20,366 bases of DNA. Source: a virus. The stretch covers positions 1 to 20,366 of IMG/VR virus record IMGVR_UViG_3300025141_000996; one strand, written 5' to 3'. The position numbers and the translations under genes were made by a program. The notes beneath the pieces are model-generated. The model worked only from the letters and a program-made list of their open reading frames with translations. It searched no databases and was not told the origin of the DNA. Positions 3,147 through 20,031 of the stretch are shown in pieces. Every line of letters begins with the position of its first letter. The stretch's first letter is position 1.

Positions 3147-3794
3147 TCATTGCTTTTGTTTAATTATCATACCAGTAGTATAGTCATCTGTCACTTCTTT
3201 TGCCTCTCCAAAGTTTTTAAGACTTAGTATAGCTTCCGAAAATCTTTGATTGTACGTGTTTAACAAGTCTGGATCACCTTTCATAAAAGTGTACGCCTCG
3301 ACTAAACACCCATACAGCAACGCATTAGGAGCATTTTCACTTAGCCACGTTGTCCCACTATCGCTCCCTGCTGTTAGAGAAGCAGGACGATAATAATAAT
3401 GCAATTCTGCGGTATAGGCAGCATCCGGAGTAGGGGCTAAGATAAAATTACTTACATCAAAAATAGCATAATATCGGGGTGTTCCAGTAGTTGCAGGATT
3501 AGGCGTAAAAGTTTGAATAAAATTAACGTCTTTAAATTCTAAAAATTCATGTGCAGACGAGCTTAAAACACTTAATGAGAAAGGCGCTAAAAAGTCGCTT
3601 GGCATTGCTAAATACTTATTAGAAGAAGAAGCTGTTCCTGTTGAGTTTTTACGAAATAAAGATAATTGTACGTTTTTAAGGATTCTTTCTTCTGCTTCTT
3701 TTATAAAAAGAGATAGATTATTAACAAAAGTAGTTTCAGAATTATCTGTGTAATCCTGTATAGCAGTTTTTAATGTTGCAAATGTAAAACTCAT
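3147..3794 (-). CDS. Head-tail adaptor protein, SU10-type (215 aa)
   Basis: Residues 1-75 (TLKTAIQDYTDNSETTFVNN then FIKEAEERILKNVQLSLFRK) and MPSDFLAPFSLSV near 64-76 match the phage SU10-like adaptor family, which sits beneath the portal in short-tailed phages. The middle has RYYAIFDVSNFILAPTPDA and LHYYYRPASLT, and the C-terminal helix is SENAPNALLYGCLVEAYTFM followed by KGDPDLLNTYNQRFSEAI, typical of the same family. The length of about 215 aa fits. Its ATG overlaps the upstream stop as ATGA (3791-3794), so the two are probably translationally coupled. An adaptor of this type, and the absence of tail-tube genes, is the main evidence for a podovirus-like virion. The family name is from memory of motif patterns, not a search. 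Confidence 0.8.
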   Translation of the reverse strand: MSFTFATLKTAIQDYTDNSETTFVNNLSLFIKEAEERILKNVQLSLFRKNSTGTASSSNKYLAMPSDFLAPFSLSVLSSSAHEFLEFKDVNFIQTFTPNPATTGTPRYYAIFDVSNFILAPTPDAAYTAELHYYYRPASLTAGSDSGTTWLSENAPNALLYGCLVEAYTFMKGDPDLLNTYNQRFSEAILSLKNFGEAKEVTDDYTTGMIIKQKQ

Positions 3795-5407: not shown

Positions 5408-5590
5408 TTATTTTTTCCCTTTTTTGTTTTGTTTAGCAATTTTTCTAATAGCTTTGTCATAGTTTTCTTGGTTTTTATCCTCATCTGTTTTAGAAGGACC
5501 ACCTTTATCTAACTTTTTAACCATGCCGCCGCCACGCATCTTTTTAACTTTAGCTGCGCCATTACCTAAATTAACTCTACCCATTGCCAT
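5408..5590 (-). CDS. Tiny basic protein with two GG motifs (60 aa)
   Basis: The sequence opens MAMGRVNLGNGAAKVKKMRG and contains two basic-GG motifs: KKMRGGG at 16-22 and KKLDKGG at 25-31. The remainder is a charged helix (SKTDEDKNQENYDKAIRKIA) ending in lysines. The start at 5590 is favoured over the internal Met at 5584 because TAGGAG lies 8 bases upstream. The gene overlaps the end of the 188-aa gene by 14 bases. It is similar in its first 20 residues to the 98-aa protein at 4981-5277. Unknown role; small KxxGG proteins of this kind are frequent in marine phages. Confidence 0.62.
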   Translation of the reverse strand: MAMGRVNLGNGAAKVKKMRGGGMVKKLDKGGPSKTDEDKNQENYDKAIRKIAKQNKKGKK

Positions 5591-6143
5591 TTCGCAATCT
5601 CCTACATGTTTCTTGACGTTTCTTTAACATTTGAGAAACATCATATTGTTCAAGATAAGTGTTATAATACCCTAATTTCTTAATTTTATCAGAAGATTCT
5701 TGAAGTTTACTGAGTCTCTGAACAAAAATCATCGAATACGGCTCATTAACAGACTCTGAGAAAGTATTATCATCAATAAATTCGTTAGGGTCGTCATAGG
5801 GGTGAAACCCCATAACCCACACATCTTTTTGAACATAACCGCCTTCTGATATTGCCATGTTAATTCTCTCTAAAGAATCGTGAAATTCTTCCGCATCTTC
5901 TTCAAAATCAAAATCAATTAATACAACAACATCATAACGATCATCAAACTGAGATATTAATGTTGTTAGCGCTTGAGAGTTCTTTTCATACAAAAAAGAA
6001 AACCCAACACGATTATCTTCCCATGCTTTCTGAGCATAAGGACAAGCAGGAAGACCGCTAAACATGTCATTAGATTGTTCTAAAGCATGTTTTGACCAAT
6101 CTTTAATTTCCTGTCGCACAGCCTCTTCTAACGAAGCGTCCAT
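5577..6143 (-). CDS. DUF1415-like protein (188 aa)
   Basis: The layout matches DUF1415, a family of unknown function of about the same length. CPYA at 34-37 corresponds to the family's CPFA, WS.H.LE before it to the conserved Trp helix, VVVLIDFDFEEDAEEFHDS (72-90) to the central strand and helix, FHPYDD at 113-118 to FHP.Y.F.D, and NEPYSMIFVQR at 133-143 to the N-x-SPYP.LHLLR segment. The C-terminus (residues 150-188) is a charged helical extension. The assignment comes from remembered motifs and is not certain. The family has no established biochemical role, but the Cys and His motifs suggest metal or ligand binding. The start has no evident Shine-Dalgarno (GTTAATCAC upstream), so expression may be low. 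It sits in the middle of virion genes, which is odd for what looks like a soluble enzyme. Confidence 0.6.
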   Translation of the reverse strand: MDASLEEAVRQEIKDWSKHALEQSNDMFSGLPACPYAQKAWEDNRVGFSFLYEKNSQALTTLISQFDDRYDVVVLIDFDFEEDAEEFHDSLERINMAISEGGYVQKDVWVMGFHPYDDPNEFIDDNTFSESVNEPYSMIFVQRLSKLQESSDKIKKLGYYNTYLEQYDVSQMLKKRQETCRRLRNGNG

Positions 6144-6147
6144 GTGA

Positions 6148-6756
6148 TTAACTATAAAACGCCGTCAATGACGATAAATGTGTCTGTGTATACACAACAT
6201 AACCGCCTCCACTAAATCGAAGACCTTCACCTCCTATATCGGGGTAAGCATTAGTATTTGCACCCGCTATAGTGTTAAATTTCATTCTATTAGAACCTGT
6301 TGCAGACCCTTCGTTTAACGAAATAGTTCCTGCGGAACCTGTATTAACAAAATAAAAATTACGAAGTCTTAGGCTACCTCTAAATATCGGGGCAGCTATT
6401 GCTGTGCCTGAACCTGCTTCAACATTACCCGCACTTGCACCAGACGCAGCAATCTGTGAAACAGTAGCAAAATAAGATGTTCCTGTTGCAACACCTGTAT
6501 CTGCTCCTGTAATAGCTTCAGTCTGTGCCGCACCTGTCTCATCTGTGCCAGTCACAGTAAAAGTATCACCGCTATCGTCACCAGCAGAAGTGATAATAAT
6601 ATTACGGGGCTGGTCAAAAGTAACGGAACCTCCGTCAGCTAACGCACCATTAATGGTAAGGTTTCCTGCTCCAGACAGGGTAGCTGCCGTTGATATTCCA
6701 TTATCATCGGAAGCTGCTGCCTCAATAAACGTGGATTGTACATCTGAACCCGACAT
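6148..6756 (-). CDS. Beta-rich virion protein, decoration-like (202 aa)
   Basis: This protein is very low in charge and high in Ala/Gly/Ser/Thr, with alternating strands throughout (TAATLSGAGNLTINGALADG, DTFTVTGTDETGAAQTEAIT, AAPIFRGSLRLRNFYFVNTG). It begins MSGSDVQSTFIEAAASDDNG. The pattern is typical of head-decoration or tail-shaft proteins in environmental phages, but no specific family is recognised. The start has an extremely strong Shine-Dalgarno (AAGGAGG, 5 bases from ATG), implying high expression, as for an abundant virion component. It follows the 44-aa basic gene by 12 bases. Confidence 0.68.
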   Translation of the reverse strand: MSGSDVQSTFIEAAASDDNGISTAATLSGAGNLTINGALADGGSVTFDQPRNIIITSAGDDSGDTFTVTGTDETGAAQTEAITGADTGVATGTSYFATVSQIAASGASAGNVEAGSGTAIAAPIFRGSLRLRNFYFVNTGSAGTISLNEGSATGSNRMKFNTIAGANTNAYPDIGGEGLRFSGGGYVVYTQTHLSSLTAFYS

Positions 6757-7776: not shown

Positions 7777-8685
7777 TTAAGCGCCGGGTGTTCCAAACAC
7801 ACAACGCCAGTCAGATACACCAAAACTGTATCTTTCTCTGGCTTTGTAACGCATGTTGCCCGTGTCAAAATCACCTTCCATAGCTGTACGAAGAGGTGTT
7901 CTGTTAAACAGTTTAAATCCATTTGGACAATCTGTTTTAATAAAGAACGCATCTGTATCAGTAAGGAAGTGATTAACAACTGCACCTTCTGGGAGCATAC
8001 CCATTGATTTAGTTGCATTAACATCATTATCCGCAGTGCCAGGACGTAGATTACTGTTAAGCAATCTTTCCGCAACAAATTGAAGTTCTTTTGGAATAAT
8101 CAATTTTTGACCACGAATAGCAACTTTTAAGCCACGCTCATCTTGTGCGCCTGCGACATTAATAAGTAACTGCTCGAGAGAAGTTTCATTAAGGTCAGCA
8201 GCTACAGCAAGAATATTGCTTTGATTGCCATTGATTGTAGGATGAGTTGAAGCACAAAGAGCCACACCATCTCCAATAGCACTCGCACCTGCAGTAAACG
8301 CATTGTTTAAAACAGCAGCAGCTTTAATTTGCTTAGTTTGAGACATAGACCGAGCTAATGCTCTTGTATAACGACTTGCAAGTCTATCATACAAGTTATC
8401 CTCAACAGCTTCTTCAGTAATACTGAAAGCCAACGCAATTGTTTCGTGAGTATAACGAGCGGTATATGTTTCCTGTGCATCATCAAAATCAACGCTTCCA
8501 CCTTCTGATTTAACAGGGGCAGTCGAAAATCCTGATAACATCACATCTTCTTCAAACGCACGATCCGAGCTTTCTTCGTCAAAAATCTCAGCATGTTCTG
8601 CGTCATATCTATCGTACTCTAGCCCAAATAAGGCGTTAAGTCCGGGTTCTAGCTCTTTAGCTAGTTGTGAACGAGATATCGCCAT
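7777..8685 (-). CDS. Major capsid protein, HK97-fold, Mu T-like (302 aa)
   Basis: The length and layout fit Mu gpT-like major capsid proteins. It has an N-terminal arm with ELEPGLNALFGLEYDRY (11-27) and FDEESSDRAFEEDVMLSGFS (35-54). There is a long helix (LYDRLASRYTRALARSMSQT then KQIKAAAVLNNAF, 98-130), a CASTHPTINGNQSN loop (144-157), and IIPKELQFVAERLLNS (196-211). The C-terminal domain ends KARERYSFGVSDWRCVFGTP (281-300). The gene comes after scaffold and decoration genes and ends at a strong terminator, as expected for the most abundant virion subunit. The Shine-Dalgarno GAAGGAG is 10 bases upstream of the ATG at 8685. No separate prohead protease is visible here. Confidence 0.88.
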   Translation of the reverse strand: MAISRSQLAKELEPGLNALFGLEYDRYDAEHAEIFDEESSDRAFEEDVMLSGFSTAPVKSEGGSVDFDDAQETYTARYTHETIALAFSITEEAVEDNLYDRLASRYTRALARSMSQTKQIKAAAVLNNAFTAGASAIGDGVALCASTHPTINGNQSNILAVAADLNETSLEQLLINVAGAQDERGLKVAIRGQKLIIPKELQFVAERLLNSNLRPGTADNDVNATKSMGMLPEGAVVNHFLTDTDAFFIKTDCPNGFKLFNRTPLRTAMEGDFDTGNMRYKARERYSFGVSDWRCVFGTPGA

Positions 8686-10842: not shown

Positions 10843-11298
10843 CTAAAAATGCAATATATCTTCTGGATCAAGTATTGTCGCAAGAATTTCATCGTCATTT
10901 AAAACTCTGACTTCTCCGCCTTCAATCCTAAACCGTGACCCCGCATATCGTGCAAAAATAACCCAATTACCCTTTTCACACCACGCTCCATTTGGAAACT
11001 TTTCTTCATCCCTATACGCCAAAGGACCTACTTTTAATACATAACCTGCAACGGTCGCTATGTTTGAATCTTCTTGCACTTTATCTGGAAGATAAATACC
11101 CCCTTCAGTTTTACCCTTTCCCCTGTACGGAAGAATAAGTAATCGCCACCCCGTAGGATTAGGCATACGCTCTAACGCACTTTTATCTATTAAAGTCGGG
11201 TCCAAAACCCGGTCTTCTTTATTTACATAATGAGAGGGAAGATCAATCTTTTTAGGTTCTTCTTGAACCTTAAATTCTTTTACTGCAGCTTTAGTCAT
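10843..11298 (-). CDS. groES: GroES-like co-chaperonin (151 aa)
   Basis: Residues 47-148 carry the GroES fold. The core is PTGWRLLILPY (48-58), followed by a glycine-containing mobile loop (KGKTEGGIYLPDK, 61-73) in which IYL at 68-70 is in the place of the hydrophobic GroEL-binding tripeptide. ATVAGYVLKVGPLAY (81-95), KGNWVIFARYAGSRFRIEGG (109-128) and VLNDDEILATI (132-142) follow the standard GroES strand order. Cellular GroES is about 97 aa and the T4 gp31 co-chaperonin 111. This one has about 45 extra N-terminal residues, including DPTLIDKSALERMPNP (33-48). It lies directly ahead of scaffold and capsid genes, so it probably replaces or supplements host GroES to fold the capsid protein. AGGAG lies about 8 bases before the ATG, within the preceding gene. 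Confidence 0.88.
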   Translation of the reverse strand: MTKAAVKEFKVQEEPKKIDLPSHYVNKEDRVLDPTLIDKSALERMPNPTGWRLLILPYRGKGKTEGGIYLPDKVQEDSNIATVAGYVLKVGPLAYRDEEKFPNGAWCEKGNWVIFARYAGSRFRIEGGEVRVLNDDEILATILDPEDILHF

Positions 11299-11767: not shown

Positions 11768-12148
11768 CTATTTTCTAAAAAACTTAGCGGCACTTCTTAC
11801 ACCATAACTAGCCGCTACTATAACTCCCAGACTTGCTGTGTACCACGTTGGTGCTTTATCTAATGCCGCAAACCCATCCATTACAATCTGTACACCAGTT
11901 GGACCTGTAAAGCTAAGTATTAAGGGTATAGACCAGAGGGCTAGAATCCACTCATCTTTAAGACTGTCTTTTGAGGCTTCAGCCATTGTCTGATCCCAGT
12001 CAATCTCACCTGTTGCCATCTTAGTTTTACGTTTCTCAACAGCAACCTTAAGCTCACCTTTAGCTTTAGTTTCTTCAACTTTGTTGTTCATCCACGCTGT
12101 TGCAACACCGCCAACAGCATTAATTATTCCACTAAATATCATACCCAA
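11768..12148 (-). CDS. Holin, 3-TM GTA-type (126 aa)
   Basis: The sequence fits the 3-TM holin family first noted in gene-transfer agents. Hydrophobic segments lie at about 3-20 (MIFSGIINAVGGVATAW), 67-81 (WILALWSIPLILSF) and 102-117 (WYTASLGVIVAASYGV). Between the first and second is a charged helical stretch with KDEW just before the second segment (64-67), which is characteristic of the family. Such proteins make inner-membrane holes to start lysis. It overlaps the upstream nuclease gene by 10 bases and precedes the 84-aa membrane protein. No endolysin is found beside it. Confidence 0.78.
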   Translation of the reverse strand: MGMIFSGIINAVGGVATAWMNNKVEETKAKGELKVAVEKRKTKMATGEIDWDQTMAEASKDSLKDEWILALWSIPLILSFTGPTGVQIVMDGFAALDKAPTWYTASLGVIVAASYGVRSAAKFFRK

Positions 12149-12516
12149 GGCTCCCTTTTTCCACCGTCATACAAACGAGCATGACCTTCTTTGATTAAAA
12201 TATCACACACAGAAACACCTTCTTCTGTAAGAGGTATACCTAATATTCTTCCAAATTTTCCTTTTTTATCTTTATGCGTTTCCATACGAAACTCTTTTTT
12301 AACTAACTCTTTAACCCTTGCTTTCGCTTGAAGACCGAGTTTCTTTTCTGCCAAGTTCCGAGTTCTGCTTTCCGGGGTGTTAATACCTTTAAAACGAACC
12401 TTTTGATTAGCAAGAATAACATTAAAACCAAGATTGACATCGCAGACAACAGTGTCACCATCAATAACTCTTCGCAACCTACATCTGTAAACATAATTTT
12501 CCGACCCTTGGTTCAT
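12139..12516 (-). CDS. SNase-like thermonuclease (125 aa)
   Basis: The protein has the staphylococcal-nuclease (OB-fold) layout. DGDT is at 19-22 with Asp21 as calcium ligand, VRFKGINTPESR at 40-51 with Arg41 and Glu49 in the positions of catalytic Arg35 and Glu43, and FGRILG at 88-93 with Arg90 in the place of Arg87. The usual second calcium ligand (Asp in D-TPE) is Asn46 here (INTPE), which may change metal dependence. No signal peptide is seen, so it probably acts in the host cytoplasm or is virion-associated. It lies between the 2-TM protein and the holin gene, and could degrade host nucleic acids late in infection. Alternatives: recombination or genome-processing nuclease. Confidence 0.82.
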   Translation of the reverse strand: MNQGSENYVYRCRLRRVIDGDTVVCDVNLGFNVILANQKVRFKGINTPESRTRNLAEKKLGLQAKARVKELVKKEFRMETHKDKKGKFGRILGIPLTEEGVSVCDILIKEGHARLYDGGKREPWV

Positions 12517-16217: not shown

Positions 16218-16505
16218 TTAATGAAGTTCATTTGTCTCTGGAAGTTTTTCCATAAAGATAGGGGTGTCTTCCCCGACATACGCTCCTTGGACATTGTATT
16301 CAAAGTATTCTTCCGCTTCCTCAAAGTCCATGTTATCTCGCGTTATCAAGATATCAATACATTTTTCCCGATCATAAATAGCAACAGGTTTATTGAACTG
16401 CCGTCCAACCCCTATAAAAGCCTTTTCAAAACCATCGGCAACTAAAAGTCCTTCTTCATATACATCTGGAAAATTCTCTTCTAGTCTTTGATTAAATTTT
16501 TGCAT
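16218..16505 (-). CDS. Conserved phage protein, function unknown (95 aa)
   Basis: MQKFNQRLEENFPDVYEEGL, then LLVADGFEKAFIGVGRQFNK (about 20-39), KCIDILITRDNMDFEEAEEY (48-67) and FEYNVQGAYVGEDTPIFMEK (68-87). The pattern of a DGF-x-A-x-IGVG stretch, a KCIxIL-x-RD-x-M helix and an EYNV-x-GAYVGE-x-TPxF end is widespread in phages and near portal or terminase genes, with no established function. The gene overlaps the end of the 1179-aa gene by 14 bases and has AAGGAGG 8 to 9 bases before the ATG, so it should be well translated. Probably soluble, with no membrane segment. Confidence 0.7.
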   Translation of the reverse strand: MQKFNQRLEENFPDVYEEGLLVADGFEKAFIGVGRQFNKPVAIYDREKCIDILITRDNMDFEEAEEYFEYNVQGAYVGEDTPIFMEKLPETNELH

Positions 16506-19500
16506 TAGTTTCCCTCCTTAATGCTGTTGGTATTCCTGTAGAAAAAACCGTGGGCCGTGTTCCACGTGAAACAATTCCGCCACGATTAAACTTTTTAACT
16601 ATAACAGATACATCCCCTATTTTCTTTTTTGGATTAGTGGTTACCAAAAAATCTTTGCCTAACACTTTTTTAATATAATCGCTTAATTCTTTTGGTTCAA
16701 AATGTTTTTGATAAGTACCTCGGTCTGTAATTATAGATCTTTCTTCAGAGCCTTTTCTACCTCTTGTTTGTTTTCTAACATAATCTATGTCGGGTACAGA
16801 AATTATAGCATGTCCTTCTTTTTTTAAAATGCGTCCTATATCCTTAATAACATAATCGCGATTTTTTTTAGGCAAAACATTTAATACATTAAAATTAGTT
16901 ATTTTTCCATAACTACTAGAAGGTATTTTTTTAGAATCCGTGTAAGTAGCGTTACTTTTTACTCCAAGATAAGGGTCAAAAGAATCAAACTTTAAAAAGT
17001 CTGCCCCTAACCCTAAACCAGAGCCGTAGTCTAATCCTGTTTGCAAGTCTTGTTTCCCTTTATTTAATTCTTTAAATATAGGGATTGTCTTTTTGTATGT
17101 ATTAAGTGTATTTGATCTTGCAGTCTTAGCCGACACACTCAAATCTAAATTTTTATTTGAAGCTTTATCTTTTGCTCTTTGTTCTTGGTTTTTAATAAGA
17201 AAAAGATCCTCTCGCTCTAAATTATATAATTTATATTGTTCTTTTCCTTTTTCAAATTGCTTTACCCCTTCAAAACCTTTTTCTTGTAAGATGTCAACAA
17301 TGTGACTATTTTCAGTTAAATCAGGGCGACTAAAATCTAATTCTTCAAACAGTTGTTTTTTTGTAAGCTTTGCACGTTTCTCTGGATCTCTTACTTTTGA
17401 ATTTACTTCTAAAAAATCAACAACATTACGTGGTTTTAACCTAGAAATAGAATCTTTAGTAAATTTTTTAACAAAGTCAGGGTCATTTTTTATAGCGTCT
17501 GTTATACTTTTTTTATGATCAGAGTTATTATAATCAAATATTTTATAACGATTTAAATCTAAAGGTACTTCTATTACAGTAGAGCCATACCCTCTGGCTA
17601 TTTTAGGGTCCGAAGTAATTGAAACACCTTTTCCTCCCCTTGGTTTTTTTCCAAAAATAGATTTACGAAATTCTATTTCATCAGGGTCTATTTCTGAATC
17701 AAACCCGTGATAAAAACTAACTACATTTTCTTTCCTTGGAGCTTTTTCCATTGCCTGAAGAGAAGAGGATAGATACTCTTCAAGCTCCGGCTTAATAATG
17801 CTTTCATCAAAAGGAATGTCGGAGCCATACAAATCTATTTTTAATTTGTCTTTATTGTATCCTTCTCCTCTTGTTCTTAAAGCAGCGCGATTCATTGTTT
17901 CGCCTGCATTTAAAACATCATTAAGCTCGTCTATCTCCGCGTTTTGTTTGTCTGTTTTGTTTTGTATTTTAAGTAATTCGAATTTCTTGTCTTTAGCTCT
18001 TTCTTGTTCTTTGTCATAAGGCGATTTTCTGTACAAAGGAGTGCGTTCTGCCTTAATTATCTCTTCAAGTTGTTTTTTAAGGTCTTTAACATGCGAAGGA
18101 AGAAAATTACTTTTGTCAGAAGCAGTAATTGTAACCTTTAAAGAGTCCTCCAATTTAGGAGAATAAAATGGAAGCTCTACTTTATATCCCTGATCTTCTA
18201 GTTCTTTTACGATTATTTGACCTAAATTAATATCAGGCGAAAGAATATTGCGTTCACCAGCGGTTAACCAATCCCTTCTTTGAATTGAACGCGAAGCTAT
18301 CTCCCCTCCAAGCGCTCTGTACAGTTTTCTTGATTCACCCTCAAGAGCCTCTTCCGCTGCTTTAGTTCCTGTTTTTTTAAACTCCAAATCAGCTTTTTTC
18401 CAATCTTTTAACAAAAGTTCGACAGAACTTGCTTCTGCTTTTAACTGGGCAAGCCTGTTTGAATCTGAAGGTTCTAAAATTTTATTAAGATTTAATCTTG
18501 TTTCTAAAACATTTATCTTTCCGTATATACTTTCCAACCCTTTGTTTATGTTTCCTGCGGTTTCAAAACTGCCGCCTCCCGCAAAACGCATGAAATCTTG
18601 CGTTTCATGCCCTAATTCATGCAGAATTATACTTTTAAACGTTTGCGGGTACTTCTTAGGATTAATTTTTACTGCGATTTCGTCTGGACCTTTATCCTTT
18701 CTTCTAAACACACCAAAAGAATCTAGGTCAGATTCATACAAAACACGTGTTTTTCCTAATTCAGGATACATTTTTAAAACAGGAGAACCTTTTAAAAGAT
18801 CCCTTGTTAAAACAGTAATCCCATCTTGAATTGATGTTCCTGATAAAGCATCCATAAGCTTTTTATCAGTTATATAAGGATTTTCCACTAAGCTTTTTGC
18901 TAAGTCTTTATCTAGGCTTGTATTTTTATCCGATACCTCATACCTTTTCGTACCATCAGGGCCAATGTGCCAGCCCAAAGGTTTCCTGATTTTATATTCC
19001 TGTAAAACTTTTATTTTTAAAACATCAGGCATACTTGCTAGGCTTTTAAAACCAAGTTCTTCTAATTCTTCTGTAATCTGTGACATCGAAAGATCGTTAA
19101 TACGGTCAGACTCAATCCTAGCCTCATTTAAATTATCCTTAAATTTCTTACCCGTTATATTATTAATCTTCATGTCGTCAGGGATTTTTGTAAGATCTCT
19201 TTCTCCGATAAAAGAACGAAGAGTAGTACTGTTCGAAACAGCTTTAGCTTTTCCAGCCCCTCCTATTACTGACCCCGTAGCACCTGTTCCCAACAAAGTA
19301 AGCAGGGAAAGCAACACATCATGCCTTCCTACTCTAGTCCCATCTTCATATTCAATGTAATCTGCACCCGGATTGTTCAAAAGATCTTGTTGTCCGTATA
19401 TAATTGCTCCTAATTTCTTATTAATAGGTTCCAAAACCTTAGTAACATTTTCACCAGCTTTCGTCCGTGTTTCAGGGTCGGAAAGAAAATCATATATATA

Positions 19501-20031
19501 CTGCCCTGTCTTCTTTGCTCCTGCAGGAAGTTTCTTGAGAATTTGTACGCTTGGCATATATTTCAAACCGTATTCTGCTTCACCGTAAACGGCAGGGTTT
19601 GTTATCTCAAGATACCCCTCGTTAGGGTTACCTTCTGCATCAAACACAAACCTGTAATCTTTCGGAAGTAATTTTTTTCCACTCCAAAAATCTACGTCTT
19701 GCTCTCCTTTTCTCGGAGAATAAAAAAAATCTTCTTTCGTCAGAGGTTTTCCTGTTTCTTTAGAAATAAAATCTAAAACACTTTGAGCATTTGGCGGTCT
19801 ATTAACAGGTATTCTAATTATTTCTTTGTCTTGAAGACGCTCTCTTCTCAGGGGATAGAAAGCTTCTACAAATGTTCGACCAACACCCAACAGCCCCTTT
19901 GAAGATTTTGAAAAAGGGTTGAAATTTATTTCGGTATCCGTGTACCCATGTTCAAAAACAGGCTCTGCTTTGCCCCCTTTTTGTAATTTACGGGCCAAGG
20001 TTCCAATGCCTTGATTGTACACATTACCCAT
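16492..20031 (-). CDS. Polyvalent protein: zincin peptidase + ART-like + methyltransferase (1179 aa)
   Basis: Three enzyme-like domains can be read. (1) Residues about 440-590 are a zincin metallopeptidase: SIILHELGHETQDF (468-480, HELGH 471-475), then FAGGG (483-487) and ALGGEIASRSIQRR (573-586) with Glu577 as possible third zinc ligand, as in peptidases of phage polyvalent proteins. (2) About 770-948 resemble ADP-ribosyltransferases: SFYHG (His775), GVSITSDPKIARGY (802-815), then KGFEGVKQFEKGKEQYKLYN (918-937) with Glu931 as candidate catalytic acid. (3) About 975-1145 are a class I methyltransferase: GLDYGSGLGLG (999-1009), Asp1019 in FDPY, and FNVLNVLPKKNRDYVIKDIG (1047-1066). Residues 1-280 are unassigned except for a Gly/Ala hydrophobic stretch at 238-260. 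[KR]K[LF]x[KR]GG motifs are near both ends. Placement between terminase and portal fits a packaged effector. The start has a weak Shine-Dalgarno and overlaps terL by 8 bases. The gene looks more AT- and Lys-rich than its neighbours. Confidence 0.78.
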   Translation of the reverse strand: MGNVYNQGIGTLARKLQKGGKAEPVFEHGYTDTEINFNPFSKSSKGLLGVGRTFVEAFYPLRRERLQDKEIIRIPVNRPPNAQSVLDFISKETGKPLTKEDFFYSPRKGEQDVDFWSGKKLLPKDYRFVFDAEGNPNEGYLEITNPAVYGEAEYGLKYMPSVQILKKLPAGAKKTGQYIYDFLSDPETRTKAGENVTKVLEPINKKLGAIIYGQQDLLNNPGADYIEYEDGTRVGRHDVLLSLLTLLGTGATGSVIGGAGKAKAVSNSTTLRSFIGERDLTKIPDDMKINNITGKKFKDNLNEARIESDRINDLSMSQITEELEELGFKSLASMPDVLKIKVLQEYKIRKPLGWHIGPDGTKRYEVSDKNTSLDKDLAKSLVENPYITDKKLMDALSGTSIQDGITVLTRDLLKGSPVLKMYPELGKTRVLYESDLDSFGVFRRKDKGPDEIAVKINPKKYPQTFKSIILHELGHETQDFMRFAGGGSFETAGNINKGLESIYGKINVLETRLNLNKILEPSDSNRLAQLKAEASSVELLLKDWKKADLEFKKTGTKAAEEALEGESRKLYRALGGEIASRSIQRRDWLTAGERNILSPDINLGQIIVKELEDQGYKVELPFYSPKLEDSLKVTITASDKSNFLPSHVKDLKKQLEEIIKAERTPLYRKSPYDKEQERAKDKKFELLKIQNKTDKQNAEIDELNDVLNAGETMNRAALRTRGEGYNKDKLKIDLYGSDIPFDESIIKPELEEYLSSSLQAMEKAPRKENVVSFYHGFDSEIDPDEIEFRKSIFGKKPRGGKGVSITSDPKIARGYGSTVIEVPLDLNRYKIFDYNNSDHKKSITDAIKNDPDFVKKFTKDSISRLKPRNVVDFLEVNSKVRDPEKRAKLTKKQLFEELDFSRPDLTENSHIVDILQEKGFEGVKQFEKGKEQYKLYNLEREDLFLIKNQEQRAKDKASNKNLDLSVSAKTARSNTLNTYKKTIPIFKELNKGKQDLQTGLDYGSGLGLGADFLKFDSFDPYLGVKSNATYTDSKKIPSSSYGKITNFNVLNVLPKKNRDYVIKDIGRILKKEGHAIISVPDIDYVRKQTRGRKGSEERSIITDRGTYQKHFEPKELSDYIKKVLGKDFLVTTNPKKKIGDVSVIVKKFNRGGIVSRGTRPTVFSTGIPTALRRETNAKI

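Follow-up and report, generated by a model that had tools for sequence, protein, structure and literature searches.

A probable phage branch of the AglA/DUF6875/DUF1415 superfamily is encoded next to an overlapping MRGGGM peptide gene

In a viral stretch of 20,366 nucleotides (IMG/VR record IMGVR_UViG_3300025141_000996, here called the window), we found that the gene at 5577-6143, described in the original prediction as DUF1415-like, is overlapped at its 3' end by a small gene for a basic peptide with the motif MRGGGM. This peptide partner is our main finding and the strongest clue to function, and it was missed by the original prediction; the peptide is probably the substrate or a close partner of the larger protein. 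For the larger protein, a superfamily of heme enzymes is a better frame than DUF1415: it is very probably a phage branch of the AglA (YqcI/YcgG)/DUF6875/DUF1415 superfamily. As a whole, our best explanation is that an enzyme of this branch, with heme on Cys34, oxidises the peptide encoded behind it, a proposal that we put forward tentatively, at somewhat less than an even chance.

An overlapping gene pair in a virion gene cluster

The features of the window on which the analysis draws are the following.

3147-3794, minus strand: SU10-type adaptor protein gene, on the opposite side of the putative enzyme gene within the cluster
5408-5590, minus strand: overlapping peptide gene, 60 aa, in another frame, with one MRGGGM unit
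5522-5539, minus strand: the MRGGGM unit, the only MRGG coding in the window
5577-5590, minus strand: overlap of the two genes, 14 nt
5577-6143, minus strand: gene for the DUF1415/DUF6875/AglA-like protein (the putative enzyme), ATG start, 188 aa, stop TAG at 5577-5579
5599-5603, minus strand: Shine-Dalgarno AGGAG of the peptide gene, spacing 8, within Arg-Arg codons near the C terminus of the putative enzyme
5799-5804, minus strand: His114-Pro115, the HP motif
6033-6044, minus strand: CPYA motif, residues 34-37, with Cys34 at 6042-6044
6148-6756, minus strand: preceding ORF, 202 aa, with its stop 4 nt before the ATG of the putative enzyme
7777-8685, minus strand: major head protein gene, which marks the virion cluster

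From N to C terminus, the 188-aa protein contains ACPYA (with Cys34), LIDFDF, GFHPYDD (with His114) and NEPYSMIF, and the translation thereby bears out the motif order first described. The location in a virion cluster was also correctly recognised, as the gene has the major head protein gene on one side and SU10-type adaptor genes on the other. We judged the gene to be real because relatives are encoded in 41/43 stretches of a first viral scan and, among the matches listed, in 576/600 stretches of a second. The product of the preceding ORF has no Pfam or PHROGs match. At the start of the putative enzyme gene, we found no Shine-Dalgarno match of at least 3 bases at usable spacing, in agreement with the earlier observation, and such a match is likewise absent at 6 of the 27 window ORFs checked. 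This absence had been taken to mean low expression, a reading that finds no support here; the ATG 4 nt past the preceding stop fits translational coupling, which is the simpler explanation.

Elsewhere in the window, a gene for a GroES-like co-chaperonin (Cpn10, E 5e-11) lies between the portal and head genes (10843-11298, minus strand). The 1179-aa protein encoded at 16492-20031 (minus strand) has a C-terminal part that by eye we take to be SAM-methyltransferase-like (DYGSGLGLG), followed by an RGGI tail, and the product of 12139-12516 (minus strand) is presumably of thermonuclease type (VIDGDTV...GINTPE).

In relatives, the overlap of the two genes is mostly 20, 17, 10, 11 or 14 nt, and the peptide in most cases consists of a few consecutive KKMRGGGMV-like units (median length 51 aa, range 36-134), the commonest number of units being 3, with an N terminus that by eye is a MAMKPRK-like stretch. 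Its composition is 26% Lys, 20% Gly, 18% Met and 8% Arg. Where the choice of units did not depend on Arg, Met is followed by Arg in 448/504 and by Lys in 29. MRGGx is encoded by 78 distinct 15-mers with five Arg codons in use, and this variety indicates that conservation is at the level of the peptide and not of the DNA. For peptide starts with a Shine-Dalgarno, 150/151 is an upper figure, as such starts were preferred by the script; 157/160 is an upper figure too, the peptide ORF having been picked for its GG and basic content. When the longest ORF was picked instead, the GG motif was present in 169/198, although some of these rows read the repeat in a different frame. Among the matches listed in a literature search on MRGGG, no title concerned phage genes of this kind.

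We had considered the C-terminal Arg-Arg of the larger protein as a heme anchor, and withdrew this reading, as its codons contain the AGGAG of the peptide gene. The conserved Arg-Arg may be retained for the Shine-Dalgarno of the peptide, because the codons overlap it.

Spread of the two genes among viruses

A scan with the HMO-2011 protein recovered a relative of the putative enzyme in 359/359 stretches, and in a T4-like clade, reached via locus L209, a relative is encoded in 59/60. Relatives in named phages include HMO-2011 gp66, CRP-345 gp78, CRP-810 gp20 and S-SSM7_092, all annotated as hypothetical. In PHROGs, the window protein matches the phage families phrog_28122 (E 2.2e-23) and phrog_10325 (E 0.0035), with no function recorded for either. 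For counts below, the window/HMO-2011-type set holds 203 proteins from 205 loci (L001 and L046 left out), including 38 repeats of identical genes.

To quantify the pairing, we counted MRGG[GMAV] codings on both strands of 160 distinct loci with the putative enzyme (1,039,693 nt; identical-gene repeats and loci with <250 nt downstream dropped). We found that 458/460 lie beside the putative enzyme gene, in a counted neighbourhood that makes up 15.9% of this 1.04 Mb, and that 151/160 loci have at least one. Seven of the nine remaining loci have variant GG repeats; the other two, CRP-810 and L205, have none. In the reverse test, with KMRGGGM DNA alone, the putative enzyme is encoded in 96/117 viral loci among the matches listed (from at least 120 matching stretches; L004 left out, duplicates kept, and 23/117 sharing a 300-mer with the 203 loci of the set above); a first count on 79 of these 117 had given 67. 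The two are adjacent in 96/96 of these listed loci, with the motif downstream in 93 and directly upstream in 3. Among the same listed matches, 21/117 loci lack the putative enzyme, two of them at a stretch end; of the 19/117 away from stretch ends, 16 are single-match, and we viewed 8 of the 21.

The pair is also carried by HMO-2011 and CRP-345, and it is kept between phages whose putative enzymes are only about one-third identical and whose flanking genes differ. The HMO-2011 record has no CDS for the peptide between gp66 and gp65, and CRP-345 gp77 is the peptide ORF with a later start. No MRGGG coding was found in the 59 T4-like stretches with the putative enzyme, nor in the S-SSM7, CRP-810 and L205 stretches. 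In another contig (L351:8117-8452), a four-unit MRGGGM peptide gene is present with the flanking gene order of the window and no putative enzyme at the site; this contig is 13.7 kb, and the putative enzyme may be encoded elsewhere.

In five further loci (L317, L326, L371, L372 and L410), the C termini of varied small proteins read KMRGGGMA..G..F, followed by a few residues that are basic or polar, and L351 has RGTGAATKGTGF near the adaptors. These motifs make up a broader group of short, basic Gly motifs encoded by marine phages. Near the adaptor genes of other marine phages, at loci without the putative enzyme (L318, L351, L403, L413), small Lys/Gly proteins of related motif are encoded as well.

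The neighbours of the putative enzyme gene vary. In CRP-810, it lies between a resolvase/2OG-oxygenase gene and a methyltransferase gene, the adjoining gene at L045:5465-6028 coding for the 2OG-Fe(II) oxygenase. We rejected this oxygenase as a conserved neighbour, as a scan of the genes around the putative enzyme shows it in CRP-810 and not in CRP-345 or HMO-2011. Of the 11 plasmid loci viewed, two (L420, L425) have a TauD-type dioxygenase gene next to the DUF6875 gene. In the T4-like loci viewed (n=5), the putative enzyme gene is convergent with a gene for a 256-257-aa protein of unknown function, and in L253 an arginine-deiminase-like protein (E 0.047) is encoded nearby (genes noted at L253:4473-5243, minus strand, and L253:5748-6758, plus strand).

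Placement in a heme-enzyme superfamily

The Pfam number given in the original prediction, PF07209, is indeed that of DUF1415. The window protein scores 20.9 bits against this family, below its gathering score of 26, and 12.7 bits against DUF6875 (PF21780), below 24.5; PF08892 (YqcI/YcgG) is not listed for it in Pfam at E <= 10, and an NCBIfam search gave nothing useful. Among 43 diverse relatives, DUF1415 is matched by 19 at E <= 1 (best 1.4e-4) and DUF6875 by 11 (best 1.1e-3). We then used hhalign, whose E-values are for one single comparison, with bacterial alignments of DUF1415 (15 sequences), YqcI/YcgG (11) and DUF6875 (12). The phage profiles match DUF1415 at a probability of 95.7-96.2% (E 9.4e-9 to 2.2e-9; the all-phage profile gives 96.2%, E 2.2e-9). 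The all-phage profile matches DUF6875, with the Cys of CP[FY] included, at 96.3% (E 1.7e-9), a score reached by 0/100 column shuffles and 0/100 block shuffles, and YqcI/YcgG at 60.9% (E 8e-5). The T4-like profile alone gives 95.0% for DUF6875, 85.0% for DUF1415 and 1.4% for YqcI/YcgG. At the level of sequence profiles, the window protein thus appears to be a distant relative of DUF1415 from a family equally close to DUF6875; of the kinship first proposed, the distant relationship stands and membership does not.

The bacterial families are themselves connected to different degrees. DUF1415 and DUF6875 match each other at 97.2% (E 4e-11), while YqcI/YcgG reaches only 2.6% with DUF1415 and 5.1% with DUF6875. 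Two proteins (L226, L227) that Pfam assigns to DUF1415 (221 and 222 bits) score 27.9 and 24.3 bits for DUF6875 (cut-off 24.5) and, judged by these scores, link the two Pfam families directly; both were found via a DUF6875 search and are included in the DUF1415 alignment, A4, of 15 sequences. Against YqcI/YcgG, the profile of clade 1 (the window/HMO-2011-type set) gives 6.7%, with 0/200 column and 19/200 block shuffles as good; merged with DUF1415, it gives 16.1%, with 0/200 and 1/200 as good; DUF1415 alone gives 1.0%, with 7/200 and 28/200 as good. By these profile scores, the sequence link to YqcI/YcgG is weak for the clade-1 profile and absent for the DUF1415 or T4-like profile alone. Searches of PDB sequences with profiles A3, A4 and A8 and with protein L225 did not recover AglA; the YqcI/YcgG profile recovered it from position 72 on only. 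DUF1415 proper was confirmed for 0/21 candidates of a scan of viral contigs.

The Cys of CP[YF]A is present in 43/43 rows of alignment A3, 45/45 of A6, 15/15 DUF1415, 11/11 YqcI/YcgG and 11/12 DUF6875 sequences. CP[YF]A itself occurs in 203/203 proteins of the window/HMO-2011-type set and in 58/59 proteins of the T4-like clade, the sole exception being truncated by the contig end; the motif was part of some scan patterns, which favours it in these counts, and was not part of those of the HMO-2011-protein scan. When 17 chosen sequences from the four families are aligned jointly, only this Cys and the initial Met are invariant. Both hhalign and MAFFT align Cys34 with the one Cys that all 11 YqcI/YcgG sequences share, and it is profile-aligned with the Cys of DUF6875; the profile searches stopped short of Cys44 of AglA. 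The HP motif is present in 43/43 rows of A3, 45/45 of A6, 15/15 DUF1415, 10/11 YqcI/YcgG and, by eye, 5/12 DUF6875 sequences. AglA has Ser-Pro at the place aligned with the HP of YqcI/YcgG, and in the cyanophage protein S-SSM7_092 (L046) CPFA is kept and the stretch with His-Pro is lost.

With DUF1415, whose function is unknown, the phage proteins have CPFA and FHPxY in common, the CPYA and FHPY of the window protein being in register with them; the NRSPYPxLHxxRE signature of DUF1415 is not in the window protein, which has NEPYSMIFVQRL there instead. With DUF6875, they share an N-terminal W..F...P.P..G....CP[FY]...A, seen by eye in most of the 12 DUF6875 sequences, and FHP in the 5/12 above. 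The DUF6875 genes that we fetched are bacterial, eleven of them on plasmids, and some have adenylation, TauD-type or halogenase genes as neighbours. DUF6875 proteins are reported to be heme-binding Trp oxidases (PMC13307353), for which a preprint on a 'cytochrome P422' family is cited.

The hypothesis of a YqcI/YcgG-AglA relationship preceded the fold searches and was drawn from published work and the pattern of the sequence. The structure prediction that had been suggested as a check gave two AlphaFold models: that of the window protein with 42 relatives has pLDDT 85, pTM 0.80 and the elements H-H-E-H-E-H-E-E-H-H-H, and that of L239, a protein of the T4-like clade 30% identical to the window protein, has pLDDT 87 and pTM 0.82. 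The two models are not fully independent, as 22/45 rows of the L239 alignment come from outside the T4-like clade. In VIA-align, the top five entries for the window model are all AglA (Z 7.1-6.3, 146-158 of 188 residues), and the top five for the L239 model are the same AglA entries (Z 8.5-7.9, 146-160 of 175 residues), with the next unrelated entry at 5.8 and 4.8, respectively. These Z values of 6.3-8.5, obtained on predicted models, are modest and lie around the VIA-align caution level of 8. The best structural match of both models is AglA. In Foldseek against the PDB, neither model had a match at E <= 0.001, and AglA was outside the best 50 rows; VIA-align re-scores the Foldseek top 1000, so AglA was among those. 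Two viral proteins in BFVD match at 5.6e-12 and 4.2e-9.

AglA, of the YqcI/YcgG enzymes, is reported to have a sandwich fold with four strands and a heme ligated by Cys44 (PMC12866846), and the helix and strand order of the window model agrees with this description. AglA was assayed with ferredoxin, ferredoxin reductase and NAD(P)H (PMC12866846). The AglA structures (9ub3, 9ub5, 9uba, 9ubb and 9ubs; PF08892) are like both phage models in fold over most of the length, with a four-stranded sheet and the main elements equally ordered, and the phage Cys after helix 1 is profile-aligned with the Cys of YqcI/YcgG sequences. They differ in that identity in the structural alignments is 8-11%, the phage proteins are shorter and without a PF08892 match, the AglA substrate is a small Arg conjugate and, via the YqcI/YcgG alignment, AglA has Ser-Pro where the phage proteins have His-Pro. 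Taken together, the predicted models of both divergent clades match the AglA sandwich fold.

Two other folds were considered. RlmM, a methyltransferase-like fold, reaches Z 5.8 over about 112 residues with the window model, <1 below the last two AglA rows, which amounts to a tie with these; it was rejected, as the L239 model gives 4.7 for RlmM and up to 8.5 for AglA. A thioredoxin-like reading arose from Thioredoxin_8 (E 0.0093, for the window protein alone of the 43) and thioredoxin chains (E 0.46, profile A3), and we rejected it because no thioredoxin is among the listed fold-search matches of the model.

Proposed chemistry and alternative readings

YqcI/YcgG enzymes hydroxylate guanidine nitrogens of arginine or arginine conjugates, as published (PMC12866846, PMC8976061), and DUF6875 proteins are reported to bind heme and to be able to oxidise L-tryptophan (PMC13307353). 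By analogy, the phage protein likely binds heme, with Cys34 as the predicted ligand by comparison with Cys44 of AglA. Electrons from a host redox protein would allow the enzyme to activate oxygen, and it would then oxidise the peptide. The most likely site is the repeated Arg, at its guanidine as in the YqcI/YcgG reaction, and Met is a possible one. Coupled translation, through the ATG 4 nt past a stop and then the 14-nt overlap, would keep the production of enzyme and peptide matched. That the enzyme acts on the MRGGGM peptide is a possibility we regard as close to evenly balanced, on the doubtful side. Hydroxylation of a guanidine lowers its basicity, so such a modification would tune the binding of the Lys/Arg-rich peptide to nucleic acid or another part of the virion. 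Stated in its most specific form, marine phages would have a two-gene system in which a heme enzyme N-hydroxylates the Arg of MRGGGM repeats to give an oxidised, protamine-like or signalling virion peptide; this full version is speculative and rather unlikely. We know of no phage precedent for protein arginine N-hydroxylation, and a search of the related literature gave no title on such a phage enzyme.

The arrangement resembles RiPP systems, which combine a modifying enzyme with a small precursor: in the phage pair (and not in the T4-like clade), a small repetitive peptide gene overlaps an oxidative-enzyme-like gene. Unlike RiPP systems, the phage pair lies in a virion cluster. The enzyme-peptide pair is possibly a new kind of phage system. 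The earlier suggestion of a redox-type or auxiliary metabolic gene holds in its first part, as the comparison with AglA suggests a redox-type enzyme with a special Cys; the overlapping peptide gene speaks for a phage peptide as the target and against auxiliary metabolism.

An auxiliary metabolic or counter-defence role is nevertheless the basis of one alternative, in which a heme enzyme acts on a small host molecule and the peptide is an independent late protein, linked to the enzyme through gene coupling only. The characterised relatives do act on free amino acids or small conjugates (PMC12866846, PMC8976061, PMC13307353), MRGGG is near the putative enzyme in 0/59 T4-like loci and not in CRP-810, and in CRP-810 the gene adjoins that of a 2OG-Fe(II) oxygenase. 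Against these points, the pairing survives about one-third enzyme identity and changed flanks, with 96/96 adjacent among the matches listed, and we consider this alternative somewhat unlikely. Adjacency could also reflect operon hitch-hiking in related phages, with MRGGGM proteins drawn from a wider, scattered Lys/Gly set near adaptors, such as the K..GG proteins encoded there without the putative enzyme in L318, L351, L403 and L413. We find this very unlikely, given that 15.9% of the sequence, the counted neighbourhood of the putative enzyme, contains 458/460 motifs and that HMO-2011 and CRP-345 have the same pair among differing neighbours.

The AglA-like fold may instead have no heme and serve as a non-catalytic partner or chaperone of the MRGGGM peptide, for example delivering it to the head in assembly. 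This would suit the position between head and adaptor genes, the close association with a peptide as basic as this one (26% Lys, 8% Arg) and the missing HP stretch of S-SSM7; an active site better explains why the Cys and His-Pro are conserved and why the protein occurs in phages that lack the peptide, and we regard a chaperone as unlikely. A virion structural protein was rejected on the position of the CRP-810 gene between resolvase/2OG-oxygenase and methyltransferase genes, and such a role may be secondary. The small cationic peptide and the overlapping genes would also fit a toxin-antitoxin-like pair in which the larger protein neutralises a toxic peptide. This is extremely unlikely: the protein gene comes first in 93/96 pairs among the matches listed, the window pair lies in a late virion cluster, L351 retains the peptide without the protein, and no PADLOC match was better than E 0.014.

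Our preferred reading, a Cys34-heme enzyme that oxidises its neighbouring peptide, offers a testable function for a conserved unknown gene of HMO-2011-type phages and their relatives, which are abundant at sea. It predicts that tailed phages encode heme enzymes, connects DUF1415 with a heme superfamily and brings to light a small gene left unannotated between gp66 and gp65 of HMO-2011. Should the peptide be modified, phages would use a post-translational chemistry whose examples described here are from antibiotic biosynthesis; if the reading is true in full, it would mean a phage RiPP-like system and protein arginine N-hydroxylation.
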